20,676 nucleotides of DNA from a virus. Shown in pieces: positions 2,897-19,000 of this stretch (position 1 is the stretch's first letter; each line of letters starts with the position of its first letter). The DNA lies in the IMG/VR virus record IMGVR_UViG_3300017757_000213, positions 1 to 20,676 of that record; one strand, 5' to 3'. A program made the translations under genes and the position numbers. Under the pieces are notes generated by a model. That model had not been told where the DNA came from and made no database searches. It worked only from the letters and a program-made list of their open reading frames with translations.

Positions 2897-4274
2897 ACAA
2901 GAACTTGATGTTGAAGAGTTAGAACGAGATGTTCAAGAAATTAAAAGAATTGAACAAGAAAAAGAAATGTTAGATGAATCTGTAAAACCTACTAAAGAGA
3001 AAATTAAAGAAGCATTTGGTAAATCTAATGTATCTAAATGGATTATTACACAGTATGGAGATGAAGTAGAAATACTAAAAGAAATTTCCAAAACATTAAA
3101 AATTAATTTATCTGAAGCATCAGACTATATTAACCAATTACCCATAGAACCAATAGTCGCTGAAAAAAATATACCTGATTTAGTTAAAGAATTAAGAGGT
3201 ATGAGAAGAAAACTAAAAGGGGATTCTAAAATTCAATTATCAAAGGGGATAGATTATTTAATAACAGCATATGAAGATTATGTGCAAAAGAGTTTAGATT
3301 CTATTTATTGGTTAAAACCCTATCAATCTGGTTTTAGTAGATTAGGTTATAGCCCTTCACATATTCAAAAATTACATAATATAAAAGATGGTGAAACGAG
3401 AAGTAGAATTATAGAACTTTGTTGTAAAATGTGGGAAAGTGATTTAGAAAAGAAAAGTTTAGATTATGGAACTGAATACTCTAATCATTGTAATATTTTA
3501 ACTGATAGTAAAAAGGAATTAAGAAAAATATTAAAAGGCATACCACATCAATCTATAAGAAAAAGTAAAAAAGAAATGATAGAAAAAAGTGTCAAGGAAA
3601 TTTTATGTAATAATCAAGGATTATCTTCCAATGAAATACACTCAAGATTAACAGACGGTCAATCAAAAATATCTACTCCGCAATCTATTTCTAAAATGTT
3701 AATGAAATTAGATGCTACTAAAGTAGATAATGAATATTATTTAGTTAAACCCTTAATCAAAAAAGATTTATATTCTTATGTAGCAGGGTTTATTGATTCA
3801 GACGGCTTTATTACTATGGATTCAACAACCGCACCAAGAGTAGGTATGATTGCTACGGGTAAAAGAGGTAAAGCATTTTTCCAAGAATTAGAATCAGAAT
3901 TAAAATGCGGTAGATTACATTTAGACCAAAAAGTAGGGGAGAATAATAGAAGCCAACATAGACTTAACTTTTACAGTCAATCAGATATTGGAACTATTTT
4001 AGATAAATGTCTTCCACATTTAAGAATGAAGAAAGCACAGGGTAAATTAATTCAGGAAGCGATTAGAATTAAAAAGTTCCATAAGAAAACAGATTGGGCA
4101 AAGCCACGATTACAAGAAATATTTAAATTAATTAAATATGAAAATTGGAAAGATTCAAGAGGACAAGGTGCTAAAGAATTTCAAAAGTATGATATTGACC
4201 CCGAAGTAGTAGTTAAATACCATGATAATTGTAAGATGCAATTGATGGATAGTATTGAAAGTGGGGTGGTCTGA
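2880..4274 (+). CDS. LAGLIDADG-family homing endonuclease (free-standing)
   Basis: From ATG 2880 the product is 464 aa. This start is preferred over the longer reading from 2820 because GGGGGTGG lies just upstream with a 6-nt spacer. The diagnostic motif is Y300-VAGFIDSDGFITM, a LAGLIDADG helix with acidic residues D306 and D308, followed by the beta-rich segment and basic residues expected of the nuclease fold. I see one motif copy, so it would act as a homodimer unless a degenerate second copy is hidden. Residues ~235-290 look like a winged helix (SSNEIHSRL, SISKMLMKL), and the N-terminal ~230 residues are charged and helical, unrecognised. It sits exactly between TerL and portal, overlapping TerL by 17 nt and the portal start by 1 nt (TGATG). 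It shows no intein splicing residues. Likely a selfish gene, possibly also DNA-processing; that role is inference. Confidence 0.85.
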   Translation: MVLILKQELDVEELERDVQEIKRIEQEKEMLDESVKPTKEKIKEAFGKSNVSKWIITQYGDEVEILKEISKTLKINLSEASDYINQLPIEPIVAEKNIPDLVKELRGMRRKLKGDSKIQLSKGIDYLITAYEDYVQKSLDSIYWLKPYQSGFSRLGYSPSHIQKLHNIKDGETRSRIIELCCKMWESDLEKKSLDYGTEYSNHCNILTDSKKELRKILKGIPHQSIRKSKKEMIEKSVKEILCNNQGLSSNEIHSRLTDGQSKISTPQSISKMLMKLDATKVDNEYYLVKPLIKKDLYSYVAGFIDSDGFITMDSTTAPRVGMIATGKRGKAFFQELESELKCGRLHLDQKVGENNRSQHRLNFYSQSDIGTILDKCLPHLRMKKAQGKLIQEAIRIKKFHKKTDWAKPRLQEIFKLIKYENWKDSRGQGAKEFQKYDIDPEVVVKYHDNCKMQLMDSIESGVV

Positions 4275-5911
4275 TGGGATTAAGAGATTACTTAGGAAAA
4301 TTTGTTAGAAGAAGAACACCAACGCCTCATTCTAAAGAAGTTTTTAATTTAGGCATACAAGAAAAAAGAAATGTACAACATATTATTGGTCCTGTATTAT
4401 ACGATGTAGCAAATCAATCTACTATTGTAAGGACTTGTATCACCCAATTAAAAACTGAAATATTTAGAAGAGGGTACGAATGGGAAAAGGCATTTTATAA
4501 AATATGTGAAGATTGCGGTACAACACACGAAAAAGAAACAGAAGTTTGTAGAAACTGTAATAGTAATAATTTAAGAAACCCTTCTAATCAACAAATGCTT
4601 TACGCAAAGAAATTTTTCAGTGGTTATGTTAATCGCTCAGAACAAAAATTTATTGATGTATTAAAAGAATTAGAGGCTGACTTAAATATCGCTGATGATG
4701 CATATTTAGTTTTAGTTAAAGAATATTATTTAGATAATCAAGGTAATGTAGCCTTACATAAAATTAAAGAAATATATAGAGGCGACCCTTTAACAATGTA
4801 TATTGATGTTGATGAAGAAGGAGATAGAGGCGAAGCACATTATACTTGTGTATCACATAGAGATGTTTATGATGATGATTGTTCTAATCCTTGTCCTCAT
4901 TGTGGTAGTAAATTACAACCTGTTTATTATATTAACAGGGTACATGGAAAAGACCAATATTTCGTAGAAGGAGAAGTTATGCATTTAAGTAAATATAACC
5001 CTTCAAGACTTTATGGGTTTTCCCCAATATTAACACTATGGAGTCATATTACAACATTAATTGCTATGGAAAATTACATTAATACATCTTATACAAAAGC
5101 AAGAGCACCAAGAGGTATTCTCGCAGTACAAACTAATAACATGGAATCACTTGTAAAATATTGGAAAGGTGTTAAAGAAAAGTTAGAAAAAGACCCACAT
5201 TATATACCTATCATGGGAATTGAAACAGATGGTGGAAGTAAAGGTAGTATTGAATGGGTTCAGTTTATGAATACCCTAAAAGAAATGGATTACATAAATG
5301 TTAAAGACGACCTTAGAGATAGAATTGGTGCTTTCTATGGTGTAAGTAAAATCTTTCAAGGAGATACTTCTACAAGTGGTGGTTTAAATAACGAAGGTAT
5401 GCAAATACTTGTAACTAACCGTTCAGTAGAATTAGCACAAAATGTATATAATCAATACTTATTCCCATTCTTATTAAAGCAATTTGGTATTACAGATTGG
5501 AATCTTAATTTATTGCGTTCCGAAGAAGAGGATAATGTAGCAGAACTAAGAAGAAGAGAAATTGAAATTAACCTTGCTACACAAATTAAAAATTTAGGTT
5601 TTGAAGTGGACATGGATGAAGACGGTAATTTCATATATTCTAAACCTCCACCAAAAGAAGAAGAAAAACCTATGGGTGGACAATCTGATAAAAAATTAGA
5701 AACTGACCCATATGCAGGAACAGATATAGACGCAAGCCAATTAGGACAATTACAAGAGCAACAATTAATGGGTCAACAAGGCGGTTCAGAAGCACCTAAA
5801 ACAAGAAATAAACCTTCTATGAGTGTTGGACCACCTAATAGAAATACAGGATTACCAAAGGAAGCAGCAAATAATAATGTTGATAAAAGAACCGAAAGGA
5901 GAGTAGGCTAA
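4274..5911 (+). CDS. Portal protein (HK97/SPP1-like) with two Cys/His clusters
   Basis: The product is 545 aa. Typical portal features are a basic N-terminus, an alpha/beta wing, the conserved VMHLSKYNPSRLYGFSPIL segment (about 237-255), the long-helix region after it and the DLRDRIGAFYGVSKIF..NNEGMQ region (about 345-378), then a Gln/Pro-rich disordered tail (after ~455). Twelve copies would form the DNA entry ring at one capsid vertex and bind TerL and the adaptor. Two likely zinc sites interrupt the fold: C78-x2-C81-x10-C92-x2-C95, and C192-x2-H195 with C207-x2-C210 (C203 extra). The start is supported by GGTG 5 nt upstream and couples to the endonuclease stop (TGATG). Zinc-knuckle insertions are not standard for well-studied bacteriophage portals. 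Confidence 0.93.
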   Translation: MGLRDYLGKFVRRRTPTPHSKEVFNLGIQEKRNVQHIIGPVLYDVANQSTIVRTCITQLKTEIFRRGYEWEKAFYKICEDCGTTHEKETEVCRNCNSNNLRNPSNQQMLYAKKFFSGYVNRSEQKFIDVLKELEADLNIADDAYLVLVKEYYLDNQGNVALHKIKEIYRGDPLTMYIDVDEEGDRGEAHYTCVSHRDVYDDDCSNPCPHCGSKLQPVYYINRVHGKDQYFVEGEVMHLSKYNPSRLYGFSPILTLWSHITTLIAMENYINTSYTKARAPRGILAVQTNNMESLVKYWKGVKEKLEKDPHYIPIMGIETDGGSKGSIEWVQFMNTLKEMDYINVKDDLRDRIGAFYGVSKIFQGDTSTSGGLNNEGMQILVTNRSVELAQNVYNQYLFPFLLKQFGITDWNLNLLRSEEEDNVAELRRREIEINLATQIKNLGFEVDMDEDGNFIYSKPPPKEEEKPMGGQSDKKLETDPYAGTDIDASQLGQLQEQQLMGQQGGSEAPKTRNKPSMSVGPPNRNTGLPKEAANNNVDKRTERRVG

Positions 5912-5912
5912 T

Positions 5913-6137
5913 ATGAATAATGATATAATTAATAGAAAATTAGAACAAGCAAGAGCAAAAATTGATGCTCTAAGAAAAAAAGTAAATACAGAACCAAAAG
6001 CACCCAAGCAAACTGTTAATACAGTTCCTGCTGGAGTTCAAGAACACCCACCCGTAAATAAAGGAATTAACGAACAACAAATTCCCGGATTTATTTCAGG
6101 TGGCCCAAAAATAAATAAGAAGATGAAGGAAGTTTAA
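5913..6137 (+). CDS. Small hypothetical protein, basic N-terminal helix and Pro/Gly-rich tail
   Basis: The product is 74 aa. The ATG lies 1 nt after the portal stop region, with AAGGAGAG about 10 nt upstream. The first ~25 residues form a charged helix (NRKLEQARAKIDALRKKV), and the rest is Pro/Gly/Asn-rich and probably disordered. I do not recognise it. Position between portal and the 859-aa gene suggests a virion or assembly accessory protein; that is inference only. Confidence 0.65.
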   Translation: MNNDIINRKLEQARAKIDALRKKVNTEPKAPKQTVNTVPAGVQEHPPVNKGINEQQIPGFISGGPKINKKMKEV

Positions 6138-6139
6138 GT

Positions 6140-8719
6140 ATGCAATCTCATTTCTTAATAGATAATTTACGAAAAAGTCTTTACACAAGACTTTACTACG
6201 CTTTAGTAGATAGTGATTATCTTATTAAGGCTTTAACTGATGATGATATAAAAATTATGTTAGATGCTATTACTGGTAAAAAGAAAAAGATAACAACTGT
6301 AATTCAAGGTGGGCATCGTCAATCAGACCCAATAGATTACCCTAATAAAGAATACTTAAGGTTAGTTGAAAAAATTAAAGAAACATATCCTGTACCTAAA
6401 AACAATAAAGGATTATCAGCAGATAAAGATAGAGATAATAGAAGGGCAGCGATGAAAGAATTAAATAAAAGACTTTCAGAAGGAGTGGCAAAAAAATACC
6501 CATTAGAAACATTGGAAACTACCTTAATTATGGAATATCTTAAAGAAAATCACGCTGCTGAAAACTTAGATAAGGTCGAAGAACAAGTTAAAGAATATAG
6601 AGAAAAATTGTTGGATGCAAAACTACAACTACAAAGTCAATATATTGAAGAAGGAAGACCTGCAAGAGAAGCCGAAGAAAAAAGAAAAAAAGAATTAAGT
6701 CTTGCTGTTCAAGAAAAATATAAACAATTTTTACAAAGAGAAAAAGTCCAAAGTGAAAAGGATAAAAAAGCAAGACCTAAAAGCCAAAAACTTGTAGAAG
6801 AATGGATGAAAGATGCTGCTCGAAGTGATGTTGGAAGATATTCTAATCTATTAAATCTTATTAATTTAGTAGGTAGTTTATACAAAGGAGATAAAAACAC
6901 TATTCTAAGATTAGAAAAATATCTAAGTGAAAAATCTAATGTAATACCTAATACAGATAAAACTAAACTAAAAGAAATTTTATTACAATTACAAAGTGAA
7001 CAAAAACAATCAGAAAAGAGATTAGGCCGTTCAACAAAAATAACTCCTGATGCTACACAAGCAAAAACAGAAGGTATTAAAGTAGGGAAACAATCTAAAA
7101 TATATAAGAAACACATAACTGTAAAATATGGTGGGGATGAAACACTAAAAATAAAAAATACTAATTATTTTATAGGATTTGAAAAATTAGATTTAAGAAA
7201 CCCTACTTGGTTTAATAGTACAATTCTTAGAGATATTCCTATGTATTGGGTTAATAAATCAGGATTTACTAAAGGATTAGATAAGTGGGAAGAATTATCT
7301 GAAGATAAAAAAACAGAATTTATTAAAAAAGTAGCAGGGCAATTACCTGAATATGCTAAAGTAAGACCTTTAGGTATTCTTGAATCACTTTATAGAAATG
7401 TATGGGAGAGACATTACGCTTTAGAAAAACCTGAAGACCCTGAAAATTTTGCATATTTTTTACAAGGTTTAAGGGATGGTATAATGGAATCGAAAGGCGA
7501 TACTGTCGCAAATGATTTTTTAAGATTACAATTATTTCAACAAAGTACTTTACCTAATTTAGTTAGAGCAATTAAATCAAATATTATTGTAAATACTGAA
7601 ACAGGCGAAATTGATTTTAGATTAGGTCCTGCCTTTAGTAAATTAATGAGAAAATATAAAACTATGGAAGAAAGAACAGAAATAATTGAAGATTTAATTG
7701 ATATTGTTAAAGGTAAATCTTTAAGCAATAAATATGCTGGAAGAAATGCTGATGAATTAAAAGCAATTGAAAAAAATATTATTGATATTGTTAGTGAAAA
7801 AATAGAAGGTGAAACAGTTTTATCTTATATCATTAGCACTTTTATGGAAATGTACCCAGCAAGTAAAATATTAGCAAAACTTCTAAAGGATGAGGATGCT
7901 TTAGTAGAAGTAGAATATCTAAGAACTGCTCAATCACCATCCAGCCTACCAACAAGACCAAAACAAAAGAAAACTAAGATAGAAGTTTTACAAGACCAAG
8001 AATATATACCCGGAAATGAGAAAGACTCCCGCCCATCAAGTCCTAATCAGAAAGCAGGTAAGAAGACAAAAGAATTTGTTGATAGAGAATGGGATAGATA
8101 CCAAAATGATGTAATTACAGAAGAAGATTTACAAGATAAAAAATATAAGGATAAAAAGGTAGGAGATAAAAAGTATGATTTAACCGATGAAGAAATTCAT
8201 GCCCGAGTTGGTTGGAAAAAGATTACTAAAAAAGTTCAACAAAGAACCTATGGTAATACAATAGTTAGAGATTCAAAAGGAAAACCTAAGATGGTAAATG
8301 AGGTAGTGTATGAAAAATACAGACCTGAATTATATAAAAAATTAGAAGAAACAAAGAAATCACTTGATAATTTATTAGTAGTATTAGGGGAAGAAGATAA
8401 TATCATTGTTAAAGAAGATGTGGGTATTATTTTAGAATCTTTAAAAGCCAAACAAAGAAAGAAAGTTAAGGCAATTTTAAATATAGCAGACCCCACAGAA
8501 TACTTTGGGCACGATTTCCTTAAGTTATCGGAACTTGTTAGAGTATTGAAATCTTTAGGTGTTGTCAAAGGGGATAAAAAACTAAATAAAAAGGTTCTCA
8601 GGTTAGAAGATGAAAATCTTAAAGTAGTAAAATTAGCAACAAGGTTAAGAAAGGACTACGAAAAATTATATAAAGAATTAAGAGAAATGGTATATCCAAA
8701 ATTAGGTGAAGAAAAATGA
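6140..8719 (+). CDS. Large charged Cys-free protein of unknown function (859 aa)
   Basis: The product is 859 aa, very rich in Lys, Glu and Asp, with no cysteine that I can find, no signal peptide and no membrane helix. Residues ~140-215 look like a long coiled coil. Residues ~325-560 are more globular, with aromatic-rich segments (NYFIGFEKLDLRNPTWF; NVWERHYALEKP). Residues ~600-700 are disordered and highly charged (Pro/Ser then Lys/Asp repeats such as DKKYKDKKVGDKKYD). The C-terminal ~100 residues are again helical. The start follows the previous stop by 2 nt with GAAGGAAG upstream, and the 3' end overlaps the next gene as ATGA. Its place after the portal is where head-morphogenesis or internal virion proteins usually lie, but I see no Mu F/SPP1 gp7 motif. 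Function unknown; candidate internal virion or ejection protein. Confidence 0.8.
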   Translation: MQSHFLIDNLRKSLYTRLYYALVDSDYLIKALTDDDIKIMLDAITGKKKKITTVIQGGHRQSDPIDYPNKEYLRLVEKIKETYPVPKNNKGLSADKDRDNRRAAMKELNKRLSEGVAKKYPLETLETTLIMEYLKENHAAENLDKVEEQVKEYREKLLDAKLQLQSQYIEEGRPAREAEEKRKKELSLAVQEKYKQFLQREKVQSEKDKKARPKSQKLVEEWMKDAARSDVGRYSNLLNLINLVGSLYKGDKNTILRLEKYLSEKSNVIPNTDKTKLKEILLQLQSEQKQSEKRLGRSTKITPDATQAKTEGIKVGKQSKIYKKHITVKYGGDETLKIKNTNYFIGFEKLDLRNPTWFNSTILRDIPMYWVNKSGFTKGLDKWEELSEDKKTEFIKKVAGQLPEYAKVRPLGILESLYRNVWERHYALEKPEDPENFAYFLQGLRDGIMESKGDTVANDFLRLQLFQQSTLPNLVRAIKSNIIVNTETGEIDFRLGPAFSKLMRKYKTMEERTEIIEDLIDIVKGKSLSNKYAGRNADELKAIEKNIIDIVSEKIEGETVLSYIISTFMEMYPASKILAKLLKDEDALVEVEYLRTAQSPSSLPTRPKQKKTKIEVLQDQEYIPGNEKDSRPSSPNQKAGKKTKEFVDREWDRYQNDVITEEDLQDKKYKDKKVGDKKYDLTDEEIHARVGWKKITKKVQQRTYGNTIVRDSKGKPKMVNEVVYEKYRPELYKKLEETKKSLDNLLVVLGEEDNIIVKEDVGIILESLKAKQRKKVKAILNIADPTEYFGHDFLKLSELVRVLKSLGVVKGDKKLNKKVLRLEDENLKVVKLATRLRKDYEKLYKELREMVYPKLGEEK

Positions 8720-8943
8720 ATGAAGAATTAACACTATTATTAAAAGAATTAGTAGAAAGAGTAAAAACAATAGAATCGACTGTATTTAATGCTGATAATG
8801 TATTGCTTAAAGCGGGTCTTGTTAAAGTAGAAGGAATGAAACCATCAATCCAAAGTGCAAGTAGAGTACCAAGTGCTGATACTATTGCTAAAATGGATTG
8901 GTCTGAAATAGATGAATTAGTTGTAAAAATGAGTGGTGAATAA
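8716..8943 (+). CDS. Small coiled-coil protein whose C-terminus matches the scaffold C-terminus
   Basis: The product is 75 aa. GGTGA (8705-8709) lies 7 nt before the ATG, counted from GGTG, and the start overlaps the previous stop as ATGA. Residues 2-25 are a probable coiled coil (LTLLLKELVERVKTIES), followed by a linker and a C-terminal segment SADTIAKMDWSEIDELV. That segment closely matches the end of the protease/scaffold protein (SDDVISKM, six residues, SWDEINDLV). It therefore looks like a miniature scaffold-like protein: an oligomerising helix plus a docking peptide. The partner is not visible; capsid protein or portal would be the obvious candidates. Function is inferred only from this similarity and the location. 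Confidence 0.75.
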   Translation: MNEELTLLLKELVERVKTIESTVFNADNVLLKAGLVKVEGMKPSIQSASRVPSADTIAKMDWSEIDELVVKMSGE

Positions 8944-8953
8944 AATGGATTGG
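8889..8953 (+). repeat. 13-bp direct repeat TAAAATGGATTGG spanning a gene junction
   Basis: TAAAATGGATTGG occurs at 8889-8901, inside the end of the 75-aa gene, and again at 8941-8953, where it supplies the stop TAA of that gene and the ATG of the next. The copies are 52 nt apart. The upstream copy encodes the KMDW of the docking-like motif and the downstream copy encodes the MDW start of the next protein. It may be a trace of a local duplication or chance. Confidence 0.5.
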
Positions 8954-9490
8954 GATAAGAAACAAGATGTAACAATGGATTTTCCACTCCATTCACATCA
9001 CGATGATAGATTAACAACAGTATTAACAGAATTAGTAGAATTATCAAATTTACTTTCTAACCATTTAGGAAGTAATATTGACCCTAATGAAAAGGCTACT
9101 AAACCAAAGAAAAAGAAAGGAGAAAAGGTAGATGTAGTTAGATTAACTGCTAAACCTATTGTTCAAAATATTGCTAAAGGATTTGTAAATACAAGAAAAG
9201 AGTCAAGAGATTTTACAGGCAGTTCTATTTCTAAGGAAGATTTTGACGATGAAGATGCTTCATTACAGGCTGATTCAATACAGGATGAAAAAATATTACC
9301 TGTTGCATTAGCAGTAGGTGGTGCATTAGCAAGTAGTAAAGATGTAGAAAAGAAGGCTGACCCTATGAGTACAAGTGAAGGAAAGGCTCTATTAACAACA
9401 TTACAAGAAGCAGCCAATAAACTTAGAAAGTATTTAATGACTACAAGAGTTTCTGCTTCTAATGCTCAAACGCCTTCTGATATGAGATAG
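8945..9490 (+). CDS. Hypothetical protein, 181 aa
   Basis: ATG 8945 is chosen over GTG 8933 because GGTGA (8936-8940) is spaced 5 nt from it and because it begins just after the previous stop. The N-terminus is His/Asp-rich (HSHHDDR), followed by a helix TTVLTELVELSNLLSN that resembles the LLLKELVERVKTIES helix of the preceding 75-aa protein. Then come a Lys-rich patch (KPKKKKGEK), an acidic patch, an Ala/Gly-rich helix (LPVALAVGGALAS, about residues 118-130, too short and weak to call a membrane span) and an amphipathic C-terminal helix. I do not recognise the family. The context suggests a head-assembly or minor virion protein, and it is co-transcribed with the ligase. Confidence 0.7.
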   Translation: MDWDKKQDVTMDFPLHSHHDDRLTTVLTELVELSNLLSNHLGSNIDPNEKATKPKKKKGEKVDVVRLTAKPIVQNIAKGFVNTRKESRDFTGSSISKEDFDDEDASLQADSIQDEKILPVALAVGGALASSKDVEKKADPMSTSEGKALLTTLQEAANKLRKYLMTTRVSASNAQTPSDMR

Positions 9491-9496
9491 GTGATT
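9489..9496 (+). promoter_or_regulatory. Shine-Dalgarno AGGTGATT that fixes a TTG start
   Basis: AGGTGATT overlaps the TAG stop of the preceding gene and lies 4 nt before TTG 9501 (7 nt counted from GGTG). There is no ATG at a suitable distance, so the ligase gene begins with TTG. The same AGGTGATT is repeated before the genes at 14717 and 15285. Confidence 0.7.
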
Positions 9497-9500
9497 AATA

Positions 9501-12008
9501 TTGCCCGTTACAGGAAGGATTGACCCATTATCAAGGGAAATTAGAATTCTTTATGATAAAGTTAGAATTGCATATCTTAGTGCAAGAGAAAGACCTAAAG
9601 ATTATAAAGATGAATGGGAAACCGTAGTCGAAAGATTACAAGAAAAATGGGATAGCCCTAAACCTATTGGAGATTTATTAAGAGAAAAATTATCGGAGTC
9701 TTTACTATTTAGTGATGAAGCAAAAGACCCTCAAGGTGCTAAAGCCAAGAGAATACATGATAATTTAAAAAATATACAAGAACAATCATCATTTTCAAAA
9801 GACCCATTTAGAAAAAAATATGGGGTTGAATTACCAAAAAAATTATTAGCAAATAAGGAAATATATGCTATATTTTTACATTGGGCATATAGAGAAGGGA
9901 GAGGTTCTTTAGATAATTGGAAAGAGTTTGGTAAATTAGAAGATAATTTTACAGAAGGTTATGTAGGGTTAGATTTAACAGATAAAGAAATATATGAATG
10001 GTTAGAAAAAAACTATGGTGAAGGGGTAGATATTAAAAGATTAAAATCTAAAATGCAAGCAGCGAGAGAATTACTTTACCAAGTTTTTACAAGTGAACAC
10101 AGTCCTGCTGAATGGCAACAATTAACAGATACTAAGAGAATTTTAAAAATGTTAAAGGAAGAAAAAGATACACTAAATGATTTTATTATTCCTAATAAAC
10201 CAATGTATAGAATTTTTGAAATAGATGATATGAAAGAATTAAAAGGTTTTACAGGAGAATATGTTGTACAGGAAAAATATGATGGTATGAGAATACAAAT
10301 TCATAAAAAGAAAGACATTAAAATATATTCGTATAATAATAGAGATATTACAAGTAAATTTGATAGACAAATTAAAATTTTACAAAATAAAGACTTCCCT
10401 GAATGTGTATTAGATGCTGAAGTAGTATTATATGAAAATGATGAGCCATTACATAGAGCCGATACTATTTCTTATATTAATTCAAAGAGAGATGATAAAG
10501 CATTTGAATTGAAGGTTCATGTATTTGATATAATGAAACTAAGGGGAGAACATATTTGGAAAAATAAACTTGAAGACAGATTAAGATTATTAATGGGAGA
10601 ATATACTAAACTTTCTGATAATTATTTACAATTCCCTACAAAATCAAATACAAGGTTTGCTGATTCTTTAGAAGAAATTGAAGAATATGCTAAGGTAATT
10701 ATGGAAAATCCAACATCGGAAGGTGTAATGATTAAAGATTCTAAATCGTCTTACATTGTAGGAAAAAAGAAAAATCCTAAATGGGTTAAATGGAAAAAAT
10801 TTGTTGATTTAGATTTACTTATATTAGATGTTAGAAAAAATAAAAACGGAACTTTTAGTTATACATTAGGTGCAGGTCCAGTAGGTGATGAAGAATATAA
10901 ACCTATTAAAAGATATAATAATAGAGATTATCTTTCAGTAGGTAAAGCACTCAATACAAAAATTAAATCTGAAATAGGTAAAATTATTAGAGTAAAGGTT
11001 GATGAAGTAAAGAAAACAAAGAATGGTTTTTCTGTATATAGTGCAAAGGTTATAGAAAAACCTGAAGTTACAGAACCTGAAAAAATTATTACTCTTGAAT
11101 TTTTATCTAAAGATAATAAAAAATCAGCATCTGATTATAATATAGAAGCGTTAAAGAAATCATATTCTATAACTGATAATATACATGGTGTTGTAGAACT
11201 GAATACAAGTATTGATACTGATGGTTTTGTATTTACAGGATTTTATCAAGATAACTTAATGGCTAAAAATGCTATTATAGATATTGATTTATGGAAGGAA
11301 GAATTAGGTAAAATCTATAAAAAAGATAGTGGTAAATTAATGTCTATTGTTTCCCAAATAGTTAATGAAAAAAATATTACTAAAAAAGAATTAATACAAG
11401 AAATAAATAAAAGAGCGCCTGATATTATTAAAAGAATGTTTAGTGATAAAAGTGATAAAGATTTAATCAGTTGGGTTAATGAAAGAGCAAAGACTTTTGG
11501 TATTTTATATAATTCTAAAACTAAGGTTTATTATTATGATGGGAAAACATTAATTAAATTACCAGAAACAGATTTTAATAAAATCGGTAAAGCGGAAGAT
11601 AAATACAAGATTTGGAAAAGAGAAGATGGCGACTTAAATTTTATTTATACAGTTAAAGGTAAAACCTTTATTTGGAGAATAGAACAAGATAATACAAAAG
11701 ATATTTATGAATTGTTCGGAAAAGCAACAAAATTTTTAGCCGAAATAGATGATAAACCTAACAAAACAAAAATGTTAGATGAAGGCAATATTAAATTAGG
11801 CGCACAAAGAGATGGTTATCACGAATATATATTAGAAGGTAAAATGTATAAAGGGAAATTTCATATTAGAGTAGTACCAATTATGGGTGAAAATAGATGG
11901 ATAGCATGGACAGGTTATGAAACTAAGCCAACCGATAAAGATAGTGATGAAGGAATGTGGAATTTAGATAAAGATAAATATAAATCTATTACATATTCTA
12001 ACGATTAA
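9501..12008 (+). CDS. ATP-dependent DNA ligase with a long C-terminal extension
   Basis: The product is 835 aa from TTG. Nucleotidyltransferase motifs are complete: motif I EKYDG with the adenylated Lys K259; SYNNRDIT; LDAEVV (motif III); HVFDIMKLRGE (IIIa); SEGVMIKD (IV); WVKWKKF (V). An OB-fold-like region (VDLDLLILDV to about residue 520) follows. Residues ~1-230 are helical and may include a DNA-binding domain. Residues ~530-835 are extra compared with archaeal/eukaryotic ligases of about 550-600 aa. They include a possible winged helix (about 625-680) and, at about 770-815, a module (EGKMYKGKFHIR then RWIAW) that faintly resembles the C-terminal half of LigD 3'-phosphoesterase domains. 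The enzyme should seal nicks. Its location among head genes, between portal and protease, is unusual and suggests a role linked to packaging or virion DNA. Confidence 0.88.
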   Translation: MPVTGRIDPLSREIRILYDKVRIAYLSARERPKDYKDEWETVVERLQEKWDSPKPIGDLLREKLSESLLFSDEAKDPQGAKAKRIHDNLKNIQEQSSFSKDPFRKKYGVELPKKLLANKEIYAIFLHWAYREGRGSLDNWKEFGKLEDNFTEGYVGLDLTDKEIYEWLEKNYGEGVDIKRLKSKMQAARELLYQVFTSEHSPAEWQQLTDTKRILKMLKEEKDTLNDFIIPNKPMYRIFEIDDMKELKGFTGEYVVQEKYDGMRIQIHKKKDIKIYSYNNRDITSKFDRQIKILQNKDFPECVLDAEVVLYENDEPLHRADTISYINSKRDDKAFELKVHVFDIMKLRGEHIWKNKLEDRLRLLMGEYTKLSDNYLQFPTKSNTRFADSLEEIEEYAKVIMENPTSEGVMIKDSKSSYIVGKKKNPKWVKWKKFVDLDLLILDVRKNKNGTFSYTLGAGPVGDEEYKPIKRYNNRDYLSVGKALNTKIKSEIGKIIRVKVDEVKKTKNGFSVYSAKVIEKPEVTEPEKIITLEFLSKDNKKSASDYNIEALKKSYSITDNIHGVVELNTSIDTDGFVFTGFYQDNLMAKNAIIDIDLWKEELGKIYKKDSGKLMSIVSQIVNEKNITKKELIQEINKRAPDIIKRMFSDKSDKDLISWVNERAKTFGILYNSKTKVYYYDGKTLIKLPETDFNKIGKAEDKYKIWKREDGDLNFIYTVKGKTFIWRIEQDNTKDIYELFGKATKFLAEIDDKPNKTKMLDEGNIKLGAQRDGYHEYILEGKMYKGKFHIRVVPIMGENRWIAWTGYETKPTDKDSDEGMWNLDKDKYKSITYSND

Positions 12009-12017
12009 GGGTTATTC

Positions 12018-12025
12018 TTTATATA
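12018..12025 (+). promoter_or_regulatory. Candidate archaeal TATA box of a leaderless protease/capsid transcript
   Basis: TTTATATA is centred about 28 nt before the ATG at 12050, in the 41-nt gap after the ligase gene. No Shine-Dalgarno-like sequence lies within 20 nt of that ATG, unlike almost every other gene here. In archaea, TATA boxes sit about 26-27 nt before the transcription start, so transcription would start at or next to the ATG, giving a leaderless mRNA. It would drive protease, scaffold and capsid genes. No clear BRE can be read in the AT-rich background. Confidence 0.5.
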
Positions 12026-12049
12026 GTTGAAAAAACAAATATAATACCA

Positions 12050-13333
12050 ATGAGTACCTTACAGGTAAAACCTATTAGATTAGGTAAATACCCTTCAAGC
12101 GGTTCTGAATTTGCTGTATTAAAGGGTACAGGAAAGGATTTAGTTATTGCTGGATATGCATCGGTTGATGTAGTAGATAAGCAAAACGATTTAATTACAT
12201 TAGAAGCACTTAATGATGCTGCTTCTAAATTTATGAAGAGTGATTATAAAAATGTAATGATTACTCATTCAAATGTACAAGTAGGAGAAGTAATTGATTC
12301 CTACACAGACACAAAAGGCAATTTGTTAAAGACAGGTTGTGATGATACAGGATTCTTTGTAGTTATTAAAATGAGAAGTGATATTGAAAAAGCGAAAGAA
12401 GTTGCAAGAGATATTAAGCGAGGCAAACTTCGTTCTTTTAGTATCGGTGGACAGGCTATTAATAAGCATAATGTTCACGACCCCGATATAGGAACATACA
12501 AAGAAATAGATAAATTAGAACTCCATGAGATTACAATTTGTGAAGAAGGGATAAACCCTGAAGCCAAATTTGAAATTGTGAAGGAAAATAAAAATAAAGG
12601 AAGTGAAAAAATGACCGATGAAATTAGTAAAGCATTAAGCGAATTTGAAGATATTGTAGGCCAATTAAGAAATCAAATTAACAACGATTCAGTAGTTAAA
12701 GAAGATGACGAAGAAATGGCTGAAGAAACAATGAGCGAAGAAACAATGAGCGAATCTCCAGAAATGGTAGACGATGAAGAAGATTTGTCCTATAAGGCTG
12801 AATCCGTAGACGATGATGAAGAAGATATGGCAGAAGAAAAGAAAGCCAATGATTCTACTGTTTATGGACACAATGCAACAGGACAAAAAATGGGCGAAAG
12901 TAATCTAACAGGAAGATTTGATTCCGAGTTTAGTGAATTTATTGCTCGTAAATCAGCATCTCTTAATTCTCTTGACCTAAGTGAAGAAAATGTCGCAAAG
13001 GCATATTCACAATTTAAGGCTGAGAGAGAAGAAGCAAGAGCATATGATTTGATTAAGAATGAATTTGAAGCACGATATAATGCAGAAATTAAGGCTGAAG
13101 CAAACATGATTGCTAAAGAAAACTATGACGCAAGTGCTGAAGTAAATGCTCTAAAGAATGAGTTTGCTGAACTCCGCAAATCTCTTCAATCAAATAATGA
13201 AGTAATTGCAAAGCAAGTTACACAAGCAACAACTCCAACAGGACTATCAGATGATGTAATCTCAAAGATGAACAATATCGGTGAAATGTCTTGGGATGAA
13301 ATTAATGACCTTGTTCGAGAGGTACAAGGCTGA
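12050..13333 (+). CDS. Prohead maturation protease (S78/XkdF-like) fused to acidic scaffold domain
   Basis: The product is 427 aa. Residues ~20-185 are the protease: VIAGYASVDVVDKQNDLI is the opening strand typical of phage prohead proteases, MITHSNVQVGEV holds the catalytic His H73, LRSFSIGG the nucleophile (S131 most likely), and ELHEIT (157-162) the conserved acidic/His strand. Residues ~188-427 form a second part: a helix, a very acidic low-complexity stretch (about 215-270), a coiled-coil-like region (about 320-390) and a terminal peptide SWDEINDLV. That is the layout of a delta/scaffold domain that fills the prohead and is then degraded. No SD precedes the ATG, so a leaderless transcript is likely. 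An internal in-frame start at 12611 has its own strong signal. The gene sits directly before the MCP, as expected. Confidence 0.9.
   Translation: MSTLQVKPIRLGKYPSSGSEFAVLKGTGKDLVIAGYASVDVVDKQNDLITLEALNDAASKFMKSDYKNVMITHSNVQVGEVIDSYTDTKGNLLKTGCDDTGFFVVIKMRSDIEKAKEVARDIKRGKLRSFSIGGQAINKHNVHDPDIGTYKEIDKLELHEITICEEGINPEAKFEIVKENKNKGSEKMTDEISKALSEFEDIVGQLRNQINNDSVVKEDDEEMAEETMSEETMSESPEMVDDEEDLSYKAESVDDDEEDMAEEKKANDSTVYGHNATGQKMGESNLTGRFDSEFSEFIARKSASLNSLDLSEENVAKAYSQFKAEREEARAYDLIKNEFEARYNAEIKAEANMIAKENYDASAEVNALKNEFAELRKSLQSNNEVIAKQVTQATTPTGLSDDVISKMNNIGEMSWDEINDLVREVQG
12596..12610 (+). promoter_or_regulatory. Internal ribosome-binding site AAAGGAAGTGAAAAA for a nested scaffold
   Basis: AAAGGAAGTGAAAAA directly precedes an in-frame ATG at 12611. 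The same 15 bases occur before the MCP start (13357-13371), followed there by one T and the ATG. Both are also preceded by AAAAATAAA. Because the protease start itself has no SD, this is the only recognisable initiation signal in the gene. Confidence 0.6.
12611..13333 (+). CDS. Nested in-frame scaffold protein, internal start within the protease gene
   Basis: ATG 12611 is residue 188 of the protease fusion and would give a 240-aa protein (MTDEISKALSEFEDIVGQL at the start) consisting only of the acidic, coiled-coil scaffold part and its terminal docking-like peptide. Initiation here is supported by the AAAGGAAGTGAAAAA signal shared with the MCP. This is the same arrangement as lambda C/Nu3, where a scaffold is made in excess from an internal start of the protease gene. 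The boundary coincides with the predicted end of the protease domain. Expression is inferred from sequence and not shown. Confidence 0.55.
   Translation: MTDEISKALSEFEDIVGQLRNQINNDSVVKEDDEEMAEETMSEETMSESPEMVDDEEDLSYKAESVDDDEEDMAEEKKANDSTVYGHNATGQKMGESNLTGRFDSEFSEFIARKSASLNSLDLSEENVAKAYSQFKAEREEARAYDLIKNEFEARYNAEIKAEANMIAKENYDASAEVNALKNEFAELRKSLQSNNEVIAKQVTQATTPTGLSDDVISKMNNIGEMSWDEINDLVREVQG
12722..12751 (+). repeat. Tandem 15-bp duplication in the acidic scaffold stretch
   Basis: GAAGAAACAATGAGC is repeated exactly twice in tandem and encodes EETMS twice. It lies in the low-complexity acidic part of the scaffold and keeps the reading frame, so it probably arose by slippage. Confidence 0.85.
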
Positions 13334-13356: not shown

Positions 13357-13371
13357 AAAGGAAGTGAAAAA
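13357..13371 (+). promoter_or_regulatory. Ribosome-binding site of the MCP, copy of the internal scaffold site
   Basis: AAAGGAAGTGAAAAA is identical to bases 12596-12610. GTG of the motif is 6 nt from ATG 13373, matching the spacing of the GGTG sites elsewhere, and this decides the ATG over the in-frame GTG inside the motif. Confidence 0.65.
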
Positions 13372-13372
13372 T

Positions 13373-14686
13373 ATGACAGGAATTAATAAAATTAGAACAA
13401 TACAAGATTTAGAGGCTGCAACCTATGGCGCATCATTTGGTAATAATAGTCTTTTGAAGGCTTTTGGAACAGGTGCTGGAGTTTCTCAAGGAATTCATAG
13501 CGATTCAAATGCAGCAGGTGGATTTACCCCAAACGCTCTATATAATTTAGTATATGGACAGAAAGTTTGGTCTATGCTAAACCGTGAAATTAACGCATTT
13601 GCTATGCTACCTAAAAAACCATGGTCTTCAAGTGGCTGGAGAGTTATGATAGAAAGAGCATTGGGTGGACAAGGTGATTTGATTGATATTACTAAAGGTT
13701 CAAACACACAAGCAGGAAATGTGACAGAAGGAAGAATTGGTGGTGTACCAGAAAACGCAAGTTTTACCAATACTAATACAACTGCTTTTTCTCCTATTGC
13801 ACCAAAGTATGAAACACTATTCGTTTCTCCTAAAACTATTGCACATCAATTCGAGATTTCTGAATTGGCTGCTGCAATGGCAAAGATTGATGATGGAATT
13901 GGTGATATTATGGCTGCTTATAGAGAAGAAGTCGGTGTAACTCACGCTGAAATGATGAACCATATGCTATTAACTCCATTGGAATCTAAGTCTGATGGTG
14001 CAGGTGGAATTGTTGCAGGTGTAGAAAACAACCTTCATTCTCTTTACGAAGTTGTTACTTCAAAGGCTGAATTAGATGCTGCACATTCCGGTGGTTTGTT
14101 TGCTGGTGGTCTATCAACAAACATGAAGACTCTATATGGAAAAGATAGAACTGCTACTGCTAATAATCCATGGATGGATTCATATGTATCTTATGGTGAT
14201 TATGCAAGTCGAAGACCACTAACTCTTAATTTGCTAAATACTGCTCTAAGAGAATTGCAAATTCGTGGTGGTTCTCCAAAGGTTCTACTAACAGGATATG
14301 ATACAATTCAAGCATTGGGAGAACTTCTACAATCTCAAGAAAGATTCATGGGAAGAACTGAAGTTATGCCTACTGTAAATGGTATCAAAGGTGTAAAGGG
14401 TAGAGAAATTGGATTTAAGGTTGCTACTTATCACGATATTCCTATTATTCCTTGTAAGGAAATGGGAAGTACCGGAAGTGGTGCAGGTCTATCAGATATA
14501 TTTATTCTTGATACAGACCATTTGCACTTTGCTACATTGAAGCCAACTGAATATTTTGAAACTGGTATTGATTCCGGTGACCCATTTTCGGTTGATGGTC
14601 TAAGAAACAAGGGTATGTATCGTACCATTGGTGAAGTAGTTTGTACATATTTGAAAGCACAAGGAAAGATTACAAACCTATCTTGA
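13373..14686 (+). CDS. Major capsid protein, HK97 fold
   Basis: The product is 437 aa from ATG 13373, preferred over GTG 13364 because AAAGGAAGTGA is correctly spaced from the ATG. Identification rests on position directly after the protease/scaffold, length, composition (rich in Gly, Ala, Thr, Asn, few charged tracts) and HK97-like order: an N-terminal arm, a Gly-rich loop region (about 95-130, likely E-loop), a long spine-helix region (ISELAAAMAKIDDGIGDIMAAYREEVG, in two parts) and a C-terminal A-domain-like part with FILDTDHLHFATLKP. A protease in the operon suggests that an N-terminal segment is removed on maturation; the cut site cannot be read. Leucine codons avoid TTA, unlike neighbouring genes, consistent with very high expression. 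GGTTTTTAATT after the stop could give partial termination. Confidence 0.88.
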   Translation: MTGINKIRTIQDLEAATYGASFGNNSLLKAFGTGAGVSQGIHSDSNAAGGFTPNALYNLVYGQKVWSMLNREINAFAMLPKKPWSSSGWRVMIERALGGQGDLIDITKGSNTQAGNVTEGRIGGVPENASFTNTNTTAFSPIAPKYETLFVSPKTIAHQFEISELAAAMAKIDDGIGDIMAAYREEVGVTHAEMMNHMLLTPLESKSDGAGGIVAGVENNLHSLYEVVTSKAELDAAHSGGLFAGGLSTNMKTLYGKDRTATANNPWMDSYVSYGDYASRRPLTLNLLNTALRELQIRGGSPKVLLTGYDTIQALGELLQSQERFMGRTEVMPTVNGIKGVKGREIGFKVATYHDIPIIPCKEMGSTGSGAGLSDIFILDTDHLHFATLKPTEYFETGIDSGDPFSVDGLRNKGMYRTIGEVVCTYLKAQGKITNLS

Positions 14687-15284: not shown

Positions 15285-15620
15285 TTGGTAGAAGTTAGAT
15301 ATACTTTAGGAATGTGCCGAATTTACGGTAGTGAATACAATAATACTTGGCGAGAAGTTAGTCCACAAGTTCTCTTTAAAGTTAAGGGTGCTGCTGGTTG
15401 GGAAATTAGAGGCGAGGAAACTACTGAAACAGTAGAAATTGTTGAAGAATCAGTTGAAGAATTGGTTGAAGAAACAGTAGAAATTGTTGATGAAGATGTT
15501 GATTTGTCTATACTAACAAAGAAAGAATTACAGAAACTTTGTGATGAAAAAGGTCTTGAATACAAGGGCTTCGATAACAAATCTGTATTAATTTCTTTGC
15601 TTTCTGATGAAGAAGAGTAA
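15285..15620 (+). CDS. Small acidic protein with C-terminal SAP/HeH-like helix-extended-helix
   Basis: The product is 111 aa from TTG. Residues 1-43 form a short beta-rich part (VRYTLGMCRIYG, VLFKVKGAAGWEI). Residues ~44-75 are an acidic Val/Glu repeat (ETVEIVEESVEELVEETVE). Residues ~76-108 (LTKKELQKLCDEKGL then NKSVLISLL) match the helix-extended loop-helix pattern of SAP, HeH/LEM or Rho-N-like domains, which often bind nucleic acid or act as interaction modules and are common in small phage head-region proteins. Exact function is unknown. The gene precedes the GC-rich hairpin and may be the last gene of the capsid transcript. Confidence 0.75.
   Translation: MVEVRYTLGMCRIYGSEYNNTWREVSPQVLFKVKGAAGWEIRGEETTETVEIVEESVEELVEETVEIVDEDVDLSILTKKELQKLCDEKGLEYKGFDNKSVLISLLSDEEE
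15426..15490 (+). repeat. 20-bp direct repeat inside the acidic Val/Glu tract
   Basis: GAAACAGTAGAAATTGTTGA occurs exactly at 15426-15445 and 15471-15490, 45 nt apart and in the same frame. It encodes ETVEIV twice, in an internally repeated acidic linker that probably expanded by duplication. Confidence 0.85.
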
Positions 15621-15644
15621 ATAAAAATATAATATAATTGAATA

Positions 15645-15681
15645 GAGGGTCGTCGCTACTTTTATTAGTGGCGACTCCCTC
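15645..15681 (+). terminator. GC-rich stem-loop, probable transcription terminator or structured RNA element
   Basis: GAGGGTCGTCGCTACT pairs with AGTGGCGACTCCCTC around a TTTATT loop: 9 bp (one G-U), a small 2x1 internal loop, then 5 bp. It is the most obvious GC-rich island in an AT-rich window and lies 24 nt after a stop codon. A pyrimidine run (CCTTTCTTT) follows. The G-U and the offset bases in the arms make it look like a folded RNA rather than a protein-binding palindrome. It could end the transcript starting at 12018 or protect its 3' end. Confidence 0.6.
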
Positions 15682-15700
15682 CTTTCTTTATAGCGAAAGG
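15681..15700 (+). promoter_or_regulatory. Possible SD-sequestering stem before the 102-aa gene
   Basis: CCTTTC (15681-15686) can pair with GAAAGG (15695-15700) around an 8-nt loop. The 3' arm includes the first part of the GAAAGGTG ribosome site of the gene starting at 15709. The stem shares base 15681 with the larger hairpin upstream, so only one base conflicts. It could reduce translation; this is inferred from pairing only. Confidence 0.35.
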
Positions 15701-15708
15701 TGTTTAAC

Positions 15709-16017
15709 ATGGGCAGAATTCAAACTTCAAGAATAACAGGCGATACAAATATAGTACCAACGGCAGATAGTCCTTGTGTATATAATGGATTTATTTTAAG
15801 AGCAACAGGTGGTAGTGCAGCAGGAACAGTAGTTTCTATTTATGCAGATAATACAGGTACAGGTACAGGTAATTTAATAGCAAGATATAGTATTTCTTCT
15901 CCAAATACAACTACAACAATTGAATATCATTATACAGACGGAATACTTTGCAGAAGTGGTTTAAGAATCGAGTGTGATAATTGGACTGATTTAGAAATGT
16001 TTGTTTTACACTCTTGA
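15709..16017 (+). CDS. Small beta-rich putative virion protein (102 aa)
   Basis: ATG 15709 is chosen over GTG 15700 because AAAGGTG (15696-15702) is spaced 6 nt from it and covers the GTG. The product is 102 aa, rich in Thr, Ser, Gly and Ile, with strand-like segments (VYNGFILRATGG, GTVVSIYAD, TTTIEYHYTDGILC, LRIECDN, LEMFVLHS) that suggest a single beta-sandwich. Two Cys residues (about 83 and 91) flank a hairpin. A TGTGTG loop is encoded by a small tandem repeat. I do not recognise the family. Composition and position favour a capsid-surface or neck component. Confidence 0.7.
   Translation: MGRIQTSRITGDTNIVPTADSPCVYNGFILRATGGSAAGTVVSIYADNTGTGTGNLIARYSISSPNTTTTIEYHYTDGILCRSGLRIECDNWTDLEMFVLHS
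15853..15870 (+). repeat. Three tandem copies of ACAGGT
   Basis: ACAGGT is repeated three times in frame and encodes a Thr-Gly loop in the small beta-rich protein. Confidence 0.85.
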
Positions 16018-16030
16018 GGGGGTGTAAAGC

Positions 16031-19000
16031 ATGACAGAATCAACAGAAGTACCTCCTTTTAGGGGAGTATTTGACTTAATGGGTACAGAATGGAATTTAG
16101 AATCTGCTTTAAATTTCTTTTATCAATTTCTAATACCACAAGGAGATATGCATACTGCTAAACAAAGAAGAGTTAGGGCAGGTCTTTTAAGATGGGCAGG
16201 TACGAGTAGAAATTGGGAAGAAAGATATAAAGATGTTATTAATTTTGACAAGGCTACCTTTGATAGAATTAATAAACAGGCAATAGAACAATTACTTGAT
16301 ACATCTTTAGGTGATTTAAATCAAAATAGATATTATCATGGGGAAGACGCAGTACCAAAAACATTCACAGATAAGACACATAAACAAATAAAAGATGGTA
16401 AAGAAGTAGAAATATCATTTAATTATGGTAAAAATTTAGGAAAAAATCCTTCAGGTTTAGAAACCTATAATAAAGAAGAATACACAAAATATCGTAATGA
16501 ATTAATTACTGCTAAAAATGAAGTAAATGCTTTAAAGGTTGATAGAGATTTTACTAAAGGTGCTACGAAAGCAGCATTTACAAGAAAGATTAAAGACCAA
16601 AATGATGCAATTTACCAAATAGAACATATGTTGGAAACAATTAAAAAGCCAACATATGATGAAACTATTAAACTAAAAGAAGTTGTAAATAATTCTCCTA
16701 AAGTACAAAAATTTTATACTTCATATAGTATGAATCCTGAAACAGATGAACAAAAAGTAGCATTAGGACTATTAATAGAAACTGTACATCAAAATTTAAA
16801 TAAAGAAGAATTCAAACAGTATGAAGAAAGGTTTGGTTCTTATGAAGAATTTAAAAAATTAATAGCAGAAAGGGAGGCCGAGTATCTTAAAATTACTCAA
16901 ATACCCTTTGTAATATCTCAAAAATTAGTAGGTATTACAAAAAATGAAGACAGTACAGATATTCCCGTTGATATTAAAAAACTAATTAATACAGAATTAA
17001 CAGATAAAGATAAAAAAATAATTAGACCAAGTTTAATTTCACTATTAAATTCAATTAAATATCCTATAGATATTGGTGAAGAAATTAAATTAGAAGATAA
17101 ATCACAAGTAATAAAGTATATTACTGATACATATAAAACAGATACACAGGCAGTAGTAAGAATAGTAGAAAGAATTACTACTAATTGGTTTAGGGTAAAT
17201 ATCGACCCACTTTTAAATATACAATCTAATGTTACATTTGAAACTGTAACTCTTTCCCCTGCTACTAAAGATGATTTATCAGATAAACCTGTTAGAATGA
17301 GTAGAGATACAATCGAAGAATTTTTATTAGATAATGTAGTTAATCCAGATAATGTATATATTTCTGGTAATAAAATTACAGGAAAGAAAAAAGCAGGTAC
17401 TGAAAAAGGTACTGATTTAGGTTTTACAGATACAACTAAAACTAAATTTAAAATGGGCATTAAGTTTGAATCACAGGAAATGGACTTTGAATCAGGTTAT
17501 GCAAAAACAATCGGTGCAGGTTCAAGGAATGTAATATCAAGTGAAAAAGATATTGATAGAAAAACAAATACAAAAGGTACAGTAATAATTAATTATAGTG
17601 GTAATATTGATAGAAAAGTAAGAGATAAAATACCGGGCTTAAACGCTGATTATCAATGGAAAATAATTAGAGATACAATGACTAATTACACAATGACAAA
17701 AAAAGCGTCAATGGAAGAAAAGGTAGAGGCTTTAATTAAGAAAAATGTTAATAGGGGTATGTTAGCCGATTTAGAAGTAGCATTAGAATTAATAAATGAG
17801 ATAGATAAAATACAAAAAGAAACTATTGGTGATGATTTAATTAAATTACATGAACATTCTAATAGTTATTTCTTTAAAAATAATCAATTTAAATTTACAC
17901 TTTCTGAATTTAGAAATAAAATTAAAGAAGATTCAAAAATACAAGCAGGAAAGTTAACGAAACAACTTAGTAATGTTAATAGAAACTTAAATAAAATTAT
18001 CGAATATGCTGAAGATAATGAACAGGAAATACAAGAGGCTCATGAAATATTAGAAGAAGATGATTCTGAAGAGGCTGCTGATGCAAGAGTAAAAGTCGAA
18101 TTAGAAAGAATATCACAACAACAAGAAATACAAGAGGGAAGAGAATTAACCGAAAGAGATAAAGAAGATGAGGCAGCCGGTGAAGAAGGTTTAGGAGTAC
18201 TTTCACAAGCATTAATAGAAGAAGGTAAATTTGATGAATATGAAGATGAAGAAACAGGTCTTACTATTAAAGAAATTAAAAATGTTCAATTACTTAATGC
18301 CATAAAAGAGGTAAAAGATAACAATAGAAGATTTGTTTCTTTATATGAAAATATTAGAATATTAGTTAGAGGTATTATTAGAGTTAAAAAAGTAAAAGAA
18401 TCAAATATTACAACATCAGGTTTTAGTAGATTATTAGATGAATGGGATGAACTCGTAGGTTATGATGATAGATTTAAGGATAAAGAAGGTAAATTAAGAC
18501 CAGAATCAGCATATACAATACCAAAATTAAAAGAATTACTTAAAACAATAAATGAAGAAAAAGATGATGAAGGTAATTTTGTAACCCCTCAACAAGATAT
18601 TAAAGATAAAGTTAGAGAATATAAATTAGACATGGAAGAATATTGGAATGAAATGAAACAATCAAAACAATTTCAAGTTCCCGAAGCAGGAGATATGGTT
18701 AGATTAGTAAATGATTTAGATTTAAGGAAAGCATTATCAGAAGATTTACATAAAGATAGTCTTTTTAATAATGCAAAACTTGGACAAGTTACAGCATCAA
18801 GTAGAAATTTAGAATTGCAAATAGATTATTCTAAGAAAAAATTATTGTTAAAGGGTAAAATTGATTGGGTTTCTGATGCCGAATCATATATTGGTTATAG
18901 AGTAGGAGGTACAGAACAATATTTCCCCGTTTCAAATACAAGTGGATTACCCGACTACAAAGCAAAAAAGATTAGAGGAAAAAGAGTTACAGGTGCAGGT

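Follow-up and report, generated by a model that had tools for sequence, protein, structure and literature searches.

The window, that is, the whole stretch of DNA analysed here (IMGVR_UViG_3300017757_000213, positions 1–20,676), is a 20.7-kb fragment of a viral genome. The large terminase subunit (TerL; 1481–2896, forward strand) was recognized by a PHROG profile match. It is followed on the same strand by an ORF at 2820–4274, whose C-terminus weakly matches an HNH endonuclease family (PHROG 5046, E 5.5e-5) and which overlaps the 3' end of the terminase gene if its first start is used, and by the portal gene (4274–5911, forward strand; PHROG portal, E 1e-71). A 74-aa ORF (start at 5913) lies between the portal gene and the gene for an 859-aa protein (6140–8719, forward strand), whose C-terminal part of about 110 aa contains LRKDYExLYxxLRExxYPK. 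In other clades this part is a separate protein, often with a tag of the cargo type described below at its start. The next ORF (8716–8943, forward strand), defined also by its IMG/VR relatives and their alignment, encodes a 75-aa protein, hereafter the small protein. Directly after it come a 185-aa ORF (start at 8945) and, between that ORF and the protease/scaffold gene, an ATP-dependent DNA ligase gene (start at 9501). The protease/scaffold (12050–13333, forward strand) matched Pfam PF04586 (Peptidase_S78, residues 29–180, E 2e-10) and the PHROG head maturation protease (E 6e-17), and the scaffold region fused to the protease is helical and acidic. The major capsid protein (MCP; 13364–14686, forward strand) matched the PHROG major head protein (E 5e-28) and SU10_MCP (E 2.5e-9), and has the HK97 fold (fold search against phage capsid proteins, E 1.9e-11). 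In the window and in relatives, the N-terminus of the MCP (13364–13420) is a near-invariant peptide, IxTIxDLExATYG, with a capped-helix pattern.

Judged by their gene content, the relatives of the window look like Magrovirales, marine archaeal viruses. Magrovirales, the viruses of Poseidoniales characterized in PMC12999244 and PMC10768690, have dsDNA genomes of about 90–110 kb, a family B DNA polymerase (PolB) with an ATP-dependent ligase, and tailed-virus head genes related to those of Druskaviridae. The long relatives are contigs of 87–103 kb; PolB was found in six of six of them, as two adjacent matches in three, and the ligase is present in the window. The nearest named viruses are Druskaviridae, the MCP being 27–28% and the protease about 30% identical to those of HCTV-1/HVTV-1. 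One contig of 184,733 bases (IMGVR_UViG_3300021958_000021) carries two complete small/scaffold/MCP sets and is probably two related genomes joined during assembly. The small gene is also present in three contigs filed as Maricaulis and Altibacter MAGs (NZMJ01000101.1, NZTP01000014.1, NZMJ01000168.1), which look like mis-binned viral contigs.

The small protein, as read from its sequence, consists of an N-terminal helix, a P/S-rich linker and a C-terminal docking helix, and it had no Pfam or PHROGs match. Its last residues are SADTIAKMDWSEIDELV (8872–8922, forward strand; Trp62 at 8899–8901), then VKMSGE. The protease/scaffold ends with SDDVISKM-NNIGEM-SWDEINDLV-REVQG, and its tail is SDDVISKMNNIGEMSWDEINDLVREVQG (13247–13330, forward strand; Trp415 at 13292–13294). 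Two scans of IMG/VR found 258 and 437 relatives of the small protein, the best 80 of each being used; 36 relatives of the protease/scaffold were found. The small gene is a separate ORF, 3.1 kb upstream of the protease/scaffold gene. We considered that the small protein might be a duplicated piece of the scaffold and rejected this: only the last 23 or so residues match, and the N-terminal parts are unrelated (hhalign probability 0.4%). In lambda gpC/Nu3 and herpesvirus UL26/UL26.5, a protease-scaffold and a smaller scaffold share the C-terminus that binds the capsid protein and are encoded by genes nested in one frame, whereas here the genes are two, unlinked, and the bodies of their products unrelated.

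The two C-termini share the motif D/N-x-I-x-[KE]-M-[SD]-W-x-[DE]-I-x-x-L-V. When 21 small proteins, without any scaffold sequence, were made into a profile (A1) and run against 15 long contigs, the scaffold tail was recovered in 14 of them, at E values from 1e-9 to 3e-3, and nothing beyond the small and scaffold genes was matched. With a second profile (A5) applied to 13 more contigs, both genes were found in nine and the small gene only in four. Combined, the profiles matched both genes and nothing else in 23 of 28 long contigs, the scaffold tail being below threshold in the other five. Alignment of the two C-terminal alignments by hhalign gave E 7e-15 and a probability of 98%. Using the same profiles, the tail motif was absent from Druskaviridae and from the Methanofastidiosa virus vir519.

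Conservation was examined in relatives, on 101 non-redundant pairs of small protein and scaffold whose ends are intact; these are not 101 independent tests, because the pairs are related by descent. The Trp is present in all 101 small proteins and all 101 scaffolds, the sole exception met, outside this sample, being a broken protease ORF. A Met stands two residues before the Trp in 101 of 101 small proteins and in 76 of 101 scaffolds, the other scaffolds having Leu or Ile. Two residues after the Trp, both tails have Asp or Glu (few Gln), and the residue at +6 is hydrophobic in 100 of 101 small proteins and 96 of 101 scaffolds. In both tails the Trp sits 11–16 residues from the extreme C-terminus, and within the lineage all small proteins, and all protease/scaffolds with a true end, end in the motif. 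The first-pass annotation had claimed that the two proteins end in the same peptide and that its absence from either of them in relatives would speak against a common role. Both peptides are indeed present, their likeness exceeds chance in the profile and hhalign comparisons, and loss of the motif was looked for in the 101 intact pairs and not found. Such strong selection on a shared terminal peptide fits a common docking partner.

The match had further been described as bipartite. Its W-x-[DE]-I-x-x-L-V half stood, whereas the half assigned to SDDVISKM did not: in the alignment register, IGEMSW of the window, rather than VISKM, pairs with IAKMDW. In the clade that is 42–45% identical, the scaffold lacks the six-residue gap (DEIAKMDWSDINALV), so that the gap is a clade-specific feature and SDDVISKM is a partial extra copy in the clade of the window. 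The similarity of the two tails was only a little higher within a genome (0.386) than between genomes (0.362; p 0.01, a value that ignores phylogeny). The residue before the Trp behaved in the opposite way among 87 unique tail pairs (identity 0.06 within a genome, 0.29 between genomes): this position is anti-correlated within a genome, D in the small protein going with S in the scaffold, and the two are swapped in one clade.

The scaffold tail was modelled together with the MCP by AF2 as a single chain in which the intergenic stops were read through (one frame). With 40 alignment rows the model was poor (pLDDT 45.9); with 76 rows a good HK97-fold MCP was obtained (pLDDT 71.5, pTM 0.66), and the tail was helical. 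The tail was predicted as two helices (residues 31–38 and 45–61 of the tail construct; pLDDT about 81–84 in the best blocks), the second of which begins at Trp415. In a sister lineage (around loci L214–L265) the protease and the scaffold are sometimes separate genes, and the protein encoded just upstream of the MCP often ends with W/F-x-[DE]-[LI], for example KSWDELEEMIGGN and KSFEELEALYDGG. Because this protein bears a comparable tail, the tail is tied to the scaffold function and not to the protease.

The first-pass annotation knew of no described system in which a small protein and a scaffold share a terminal peptide. Such an arrangement is in fact known in kind: the SaPI1 protein CpmB (72 aa, helical) shares a C-terminal coat-binding helix-and-hook with the scaffold SP of phage 80alpha (PMC5644958). 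CpmB is a satellite protein that redirects capsid size and out-competes SP through its tail (PMC5644958). As in the CpmB/SP pair (RIIK tail), a short protein, here helical as judged from its sequence, and a long scaffold with an unrelated body share a C-terminal peptide. The differences are that the peptide is another one, that coat binding is described for CpmB/SP and predicted here, and that in our case neither gene belongs to a satellite: both lie in one viral genome, as seen in long contigs, and are conserved together.

We propose that the small protein serves assembly as a second member of the scaffold class, using the docking site of the scaffold. The shared tail would be a docking helix composed of a Met, a Ser/Asp helix cap and then W-x-[DE]-I-x-x-L-V. 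The tail of the protease/scaffold would hold the capsid lattice while the procapsid assembles. The tail of the small protein would occupy this site too, which most likely lies on the MCP's inner face, while the N-terminal helix of the small protein would probably dimerize or bind another core protein; the small protein would act as a co-scaffold or compete locally with the long scaffold, much as CpmB competes with 80alpha SP.

The MCP is the most likely receptor of the tail, and the portal is the alternative one. Docking on the portal, or on a portal-bound core protein, with the small protein helping to place the portal vertex, would agree with the location of the small gene between portal and protease and with the restriction of the motif to two genes per genome. 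We nevertheless regard it as rather unlikely, since the similar tail of the sister lineage is on a protein encoded directly upstream of the MCP and the tail-sharing pair of 80alpha/SaPI1 binds the coat protein. Still less credit is due to the idea that the small protein works outside the procapsid and, by competing with the scaffold, acts as an inhibitor or sets the timing. A docking tail on a body far shorter than that of the scaffold would suit such a factor, and CpmB does out-compete SP through its tail, but all long contigs examined that have an intact head module keep the small gene, which suggests a constitutive role in assembly. Finally, the peptide could be a site recognized or processed by the S78 prohead protease, both carriers being cleaved. 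That one carrier is the protease itself, and that the capsid-targeting peptides of T4 are removed by the prohead protease, speak for this reading; the position of the motif at the extreme C-terminus, where only the last 11–16 residues follow from the Trp, and the presence of an invariant Trp in a capped helix, which resembles binding rather than cutting, make it very improbable. A tail that first docks could still be cleaved afterwards.

The first-pass annotation had described the terminal peptide in two proteins. This holds for the tail itself, which the profile searches of the long contigs found in these two genes only; a sister form of it, however, is carried by hundreds of other late proteins encoded outside the window. 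It was first seen in unrelated small ORFs of two loci (L249 and L252), which start with M-x-W-x-[DE]-I-[LI]-K, and a systematic scan for such starts yielded 284 distinct ORFs. Over all loci, 751 distinct tagged proteins were counted, falling into 324 single-linkage families; the regular expression imposes part of the pattern in this count, and families may be divided or merged by single linkage. ORF calls were mechanical, all data come from metagenomic contigs, and the genomes are related. When only an M-[STND]-W start and a ribosome-binding site were required, the following residues being free, 668 starts were obtained, with L, I, V or M at +4 in 639 and K or R at +5 in 608. In 641,573 aa of relatives, M[STNDAG]W.[DEN][ILV] occurred 172 times at the N-terminus, 146 times at the C-terminus and nine times internally; in haloviruses it did not occur.

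In eight genomes, 86 of 550 late-strand ORFs were N-tagged, versus one of 476 on the other strand and 0.35 expected from shuffles. Trp was observed at residue 3 in 128 cases versus 14.4 expected. These positional counts, the shuffles and the other strand exclude chance as the origin of the N-terminal tag. The strict tag was absent from all 322 genes of the lineage with a KSWDELEE scaffold tail and from all 349 genes of haloviruses. Scanning all of IMG/VR for the coded tag matched at least 120 stretches (two for a scrambled control); among the matches listed, 125 of 142 had an in-frame stop no more than 15 codons upstream. At least one marker consistent with Magrovirales was present in 41 of the 47 contigs checked, the other six being unassigned.

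Each of the eight long genomes has 5–18 unrelated tagged late genes. They occupy the late strand, for the most part as arrays upstream of TerL, and in some genomes also between the portal and small genes or just after the MCP gene; the MCP, portal and TerL of these eight genomes are not tagged. By regular expression, no strict N-tagged gene was found in the window. The 185-aa ORF (start MDWDKKQD) was considered and rejected as a tagged gene, as its relatives do not keep the tag. A genome 82% identical to the window (G002) has about a dozen tagged genes, mostly upstream of TerL, past the edge of the window. Among the tagged proteins are small, very basic ones, a pentapeptide-repeat protein (E 2e-11), a likely 2H phosphoesterase (PF08302, E 2e-6), one with a weak SprT-like metallopeptidase match (E 0.003) and others that have HExxH-like motifs. 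The cargo form is also found at the C-terminus of seven unrelated long proteins, and where the 110-aa neighbour described above is fused to a new N-terminal part, the tag is, in some clades, on the new N-terminus.

Several observations were made beside these counts. A near-identical leader, ATGCAGGAGNNATTACA, precedes 26 tagged and three untagged genes in the DNA examined, and may let tagged genes swap by recombination. In one genome (G004, 82722–89600, forward strand), LKNIQISSQ[RK]T[SG]S[KR] is common to several paralogous tagged proteins, and in an 806-aa paralogue the stretch IQI-x-x-Q-[KR]-TSSRDY recurs twice internally, as in a fused polyprotein. Another lineage, whose scaffold tail is of a different kind, has an array of adjacent small genes (G076, 15328–17051, forward strand, and G078) that start with M-[SN]-[YF]-N (MSYNQ, MNYNTAEL, MSFNQH), possibly another N-terminal tag. 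A description of the tag was not found in the open-licence papers searched, which did not include key magrovirus papers of 2017, 2023 and 2025.

The best analogue of the N-terminal tag is the capsid-targeting sequence of phage T4. In IPI, IPII and IPIII, ten N-terminal residues suffice for packaging into the prohead, and the prohead protease removes these peptides (PMC9026906). In both cases, late proteins with nothing else in common begin with a short peptide; the present tag differs in that it extends over hundreds of families across an apparent virus order, is sometimes C-terminal and resembles the scaffold's own tail, and packaging is predicted only. In phage P1, DarB has an N-terminal signal, longer than 9 and shorter than 30 residues, that directs a reporter into the head (PMC9024508). 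It is likewise an N-terminal packaging signal, packaging being a prediction in our case, but it is known for a single protein and has no match to a scaffold tail. By analogy, the sister tag (M-[STN]-W-x-[DEN]-I-[LI]-K) would probably act in capsid targeting, bringing internal proteins into the procapsid. The sequence data show the shared motif with its conservation and terminal position, its two classes, their restriction to the lineage and the co-orientation of tagged and late genes; the receptor, co-assembly, packaging and the role of the small protein are inferred from them. The docking-tail account as a whole, a co-scaffold pair together with the sister tag as a capsid-targeting label, seems to us somewhat better than an even bet; the lack of a strict N-tagged gene in the window, the slight within-genome excess of tail similarity and the differences between tag and tail given next count against it.

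Whether tag and tail form one code is a separate question. The two diverge after the core: the residue at +4 is hydrophobic in 639 of 668 N-terminal tags versus none of the 101 small and 101 scaffold tails, +5 is K or R in 608 of 668 tags versus 25 of 101 small and three of 101 scaffold tails, and +6 is hydrophobic in 112 of 668 tags versus 100 of 101 small and 96 of 101 scaffold tails. The cargo and scaffold forms may therefore use different sites; a common receptor is a plausible hypothesis. S-x-x-[DE] with flanking hydrophobic residues is also a common helix-capping pattern. The tag could thus be unrelated to the scaffold tail, have another role (another receptor, a tail or host factor, or late-gene translation) and resemble it by convergence on this pattern. 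The clear sub-class difference at +4 to +6 favours such convergence, as do the Ser codon, which is AGT in 90 of 94 strict tags, and the leader repeated before 26 tagged genes. On the other side, tag and tail have the same core with an invariant Trp, and the tag is missing from lineages with a different scaffold tail. A translation or DNA signal as the cause of the tag was rejected: the Leu, Ile, Asp and Lys codons vary, those for Leu and Ile freely, and the occurrence of the tag at C-termini excludes a translation signal. Convergence appears doubtful, yet deserves serious consideration. That one terminal docking code (M-S-W-x-D-I variants) governs capsid assembly across an archaeal virus order, its carriers (the scaffold, the small protein and hundreds of internal-protein families) competing for or sharing one procapsid site, is a tentative reading to which we give slightly less than even weight.

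If the tag is a capsid-targeting label, the mostly unknown late proteins of abundant marine archaeal viruses would become a readable list of probable capsid cargo, and the short tag would offer a means, testable in vitro, of loading proteins into HK97-type shells. It would also suggest how internal proteins can be recruited, namely via a peptide like the scaffold's own tail. If tag and tail were one code, any gene that gains the tag would become capsid cargo.
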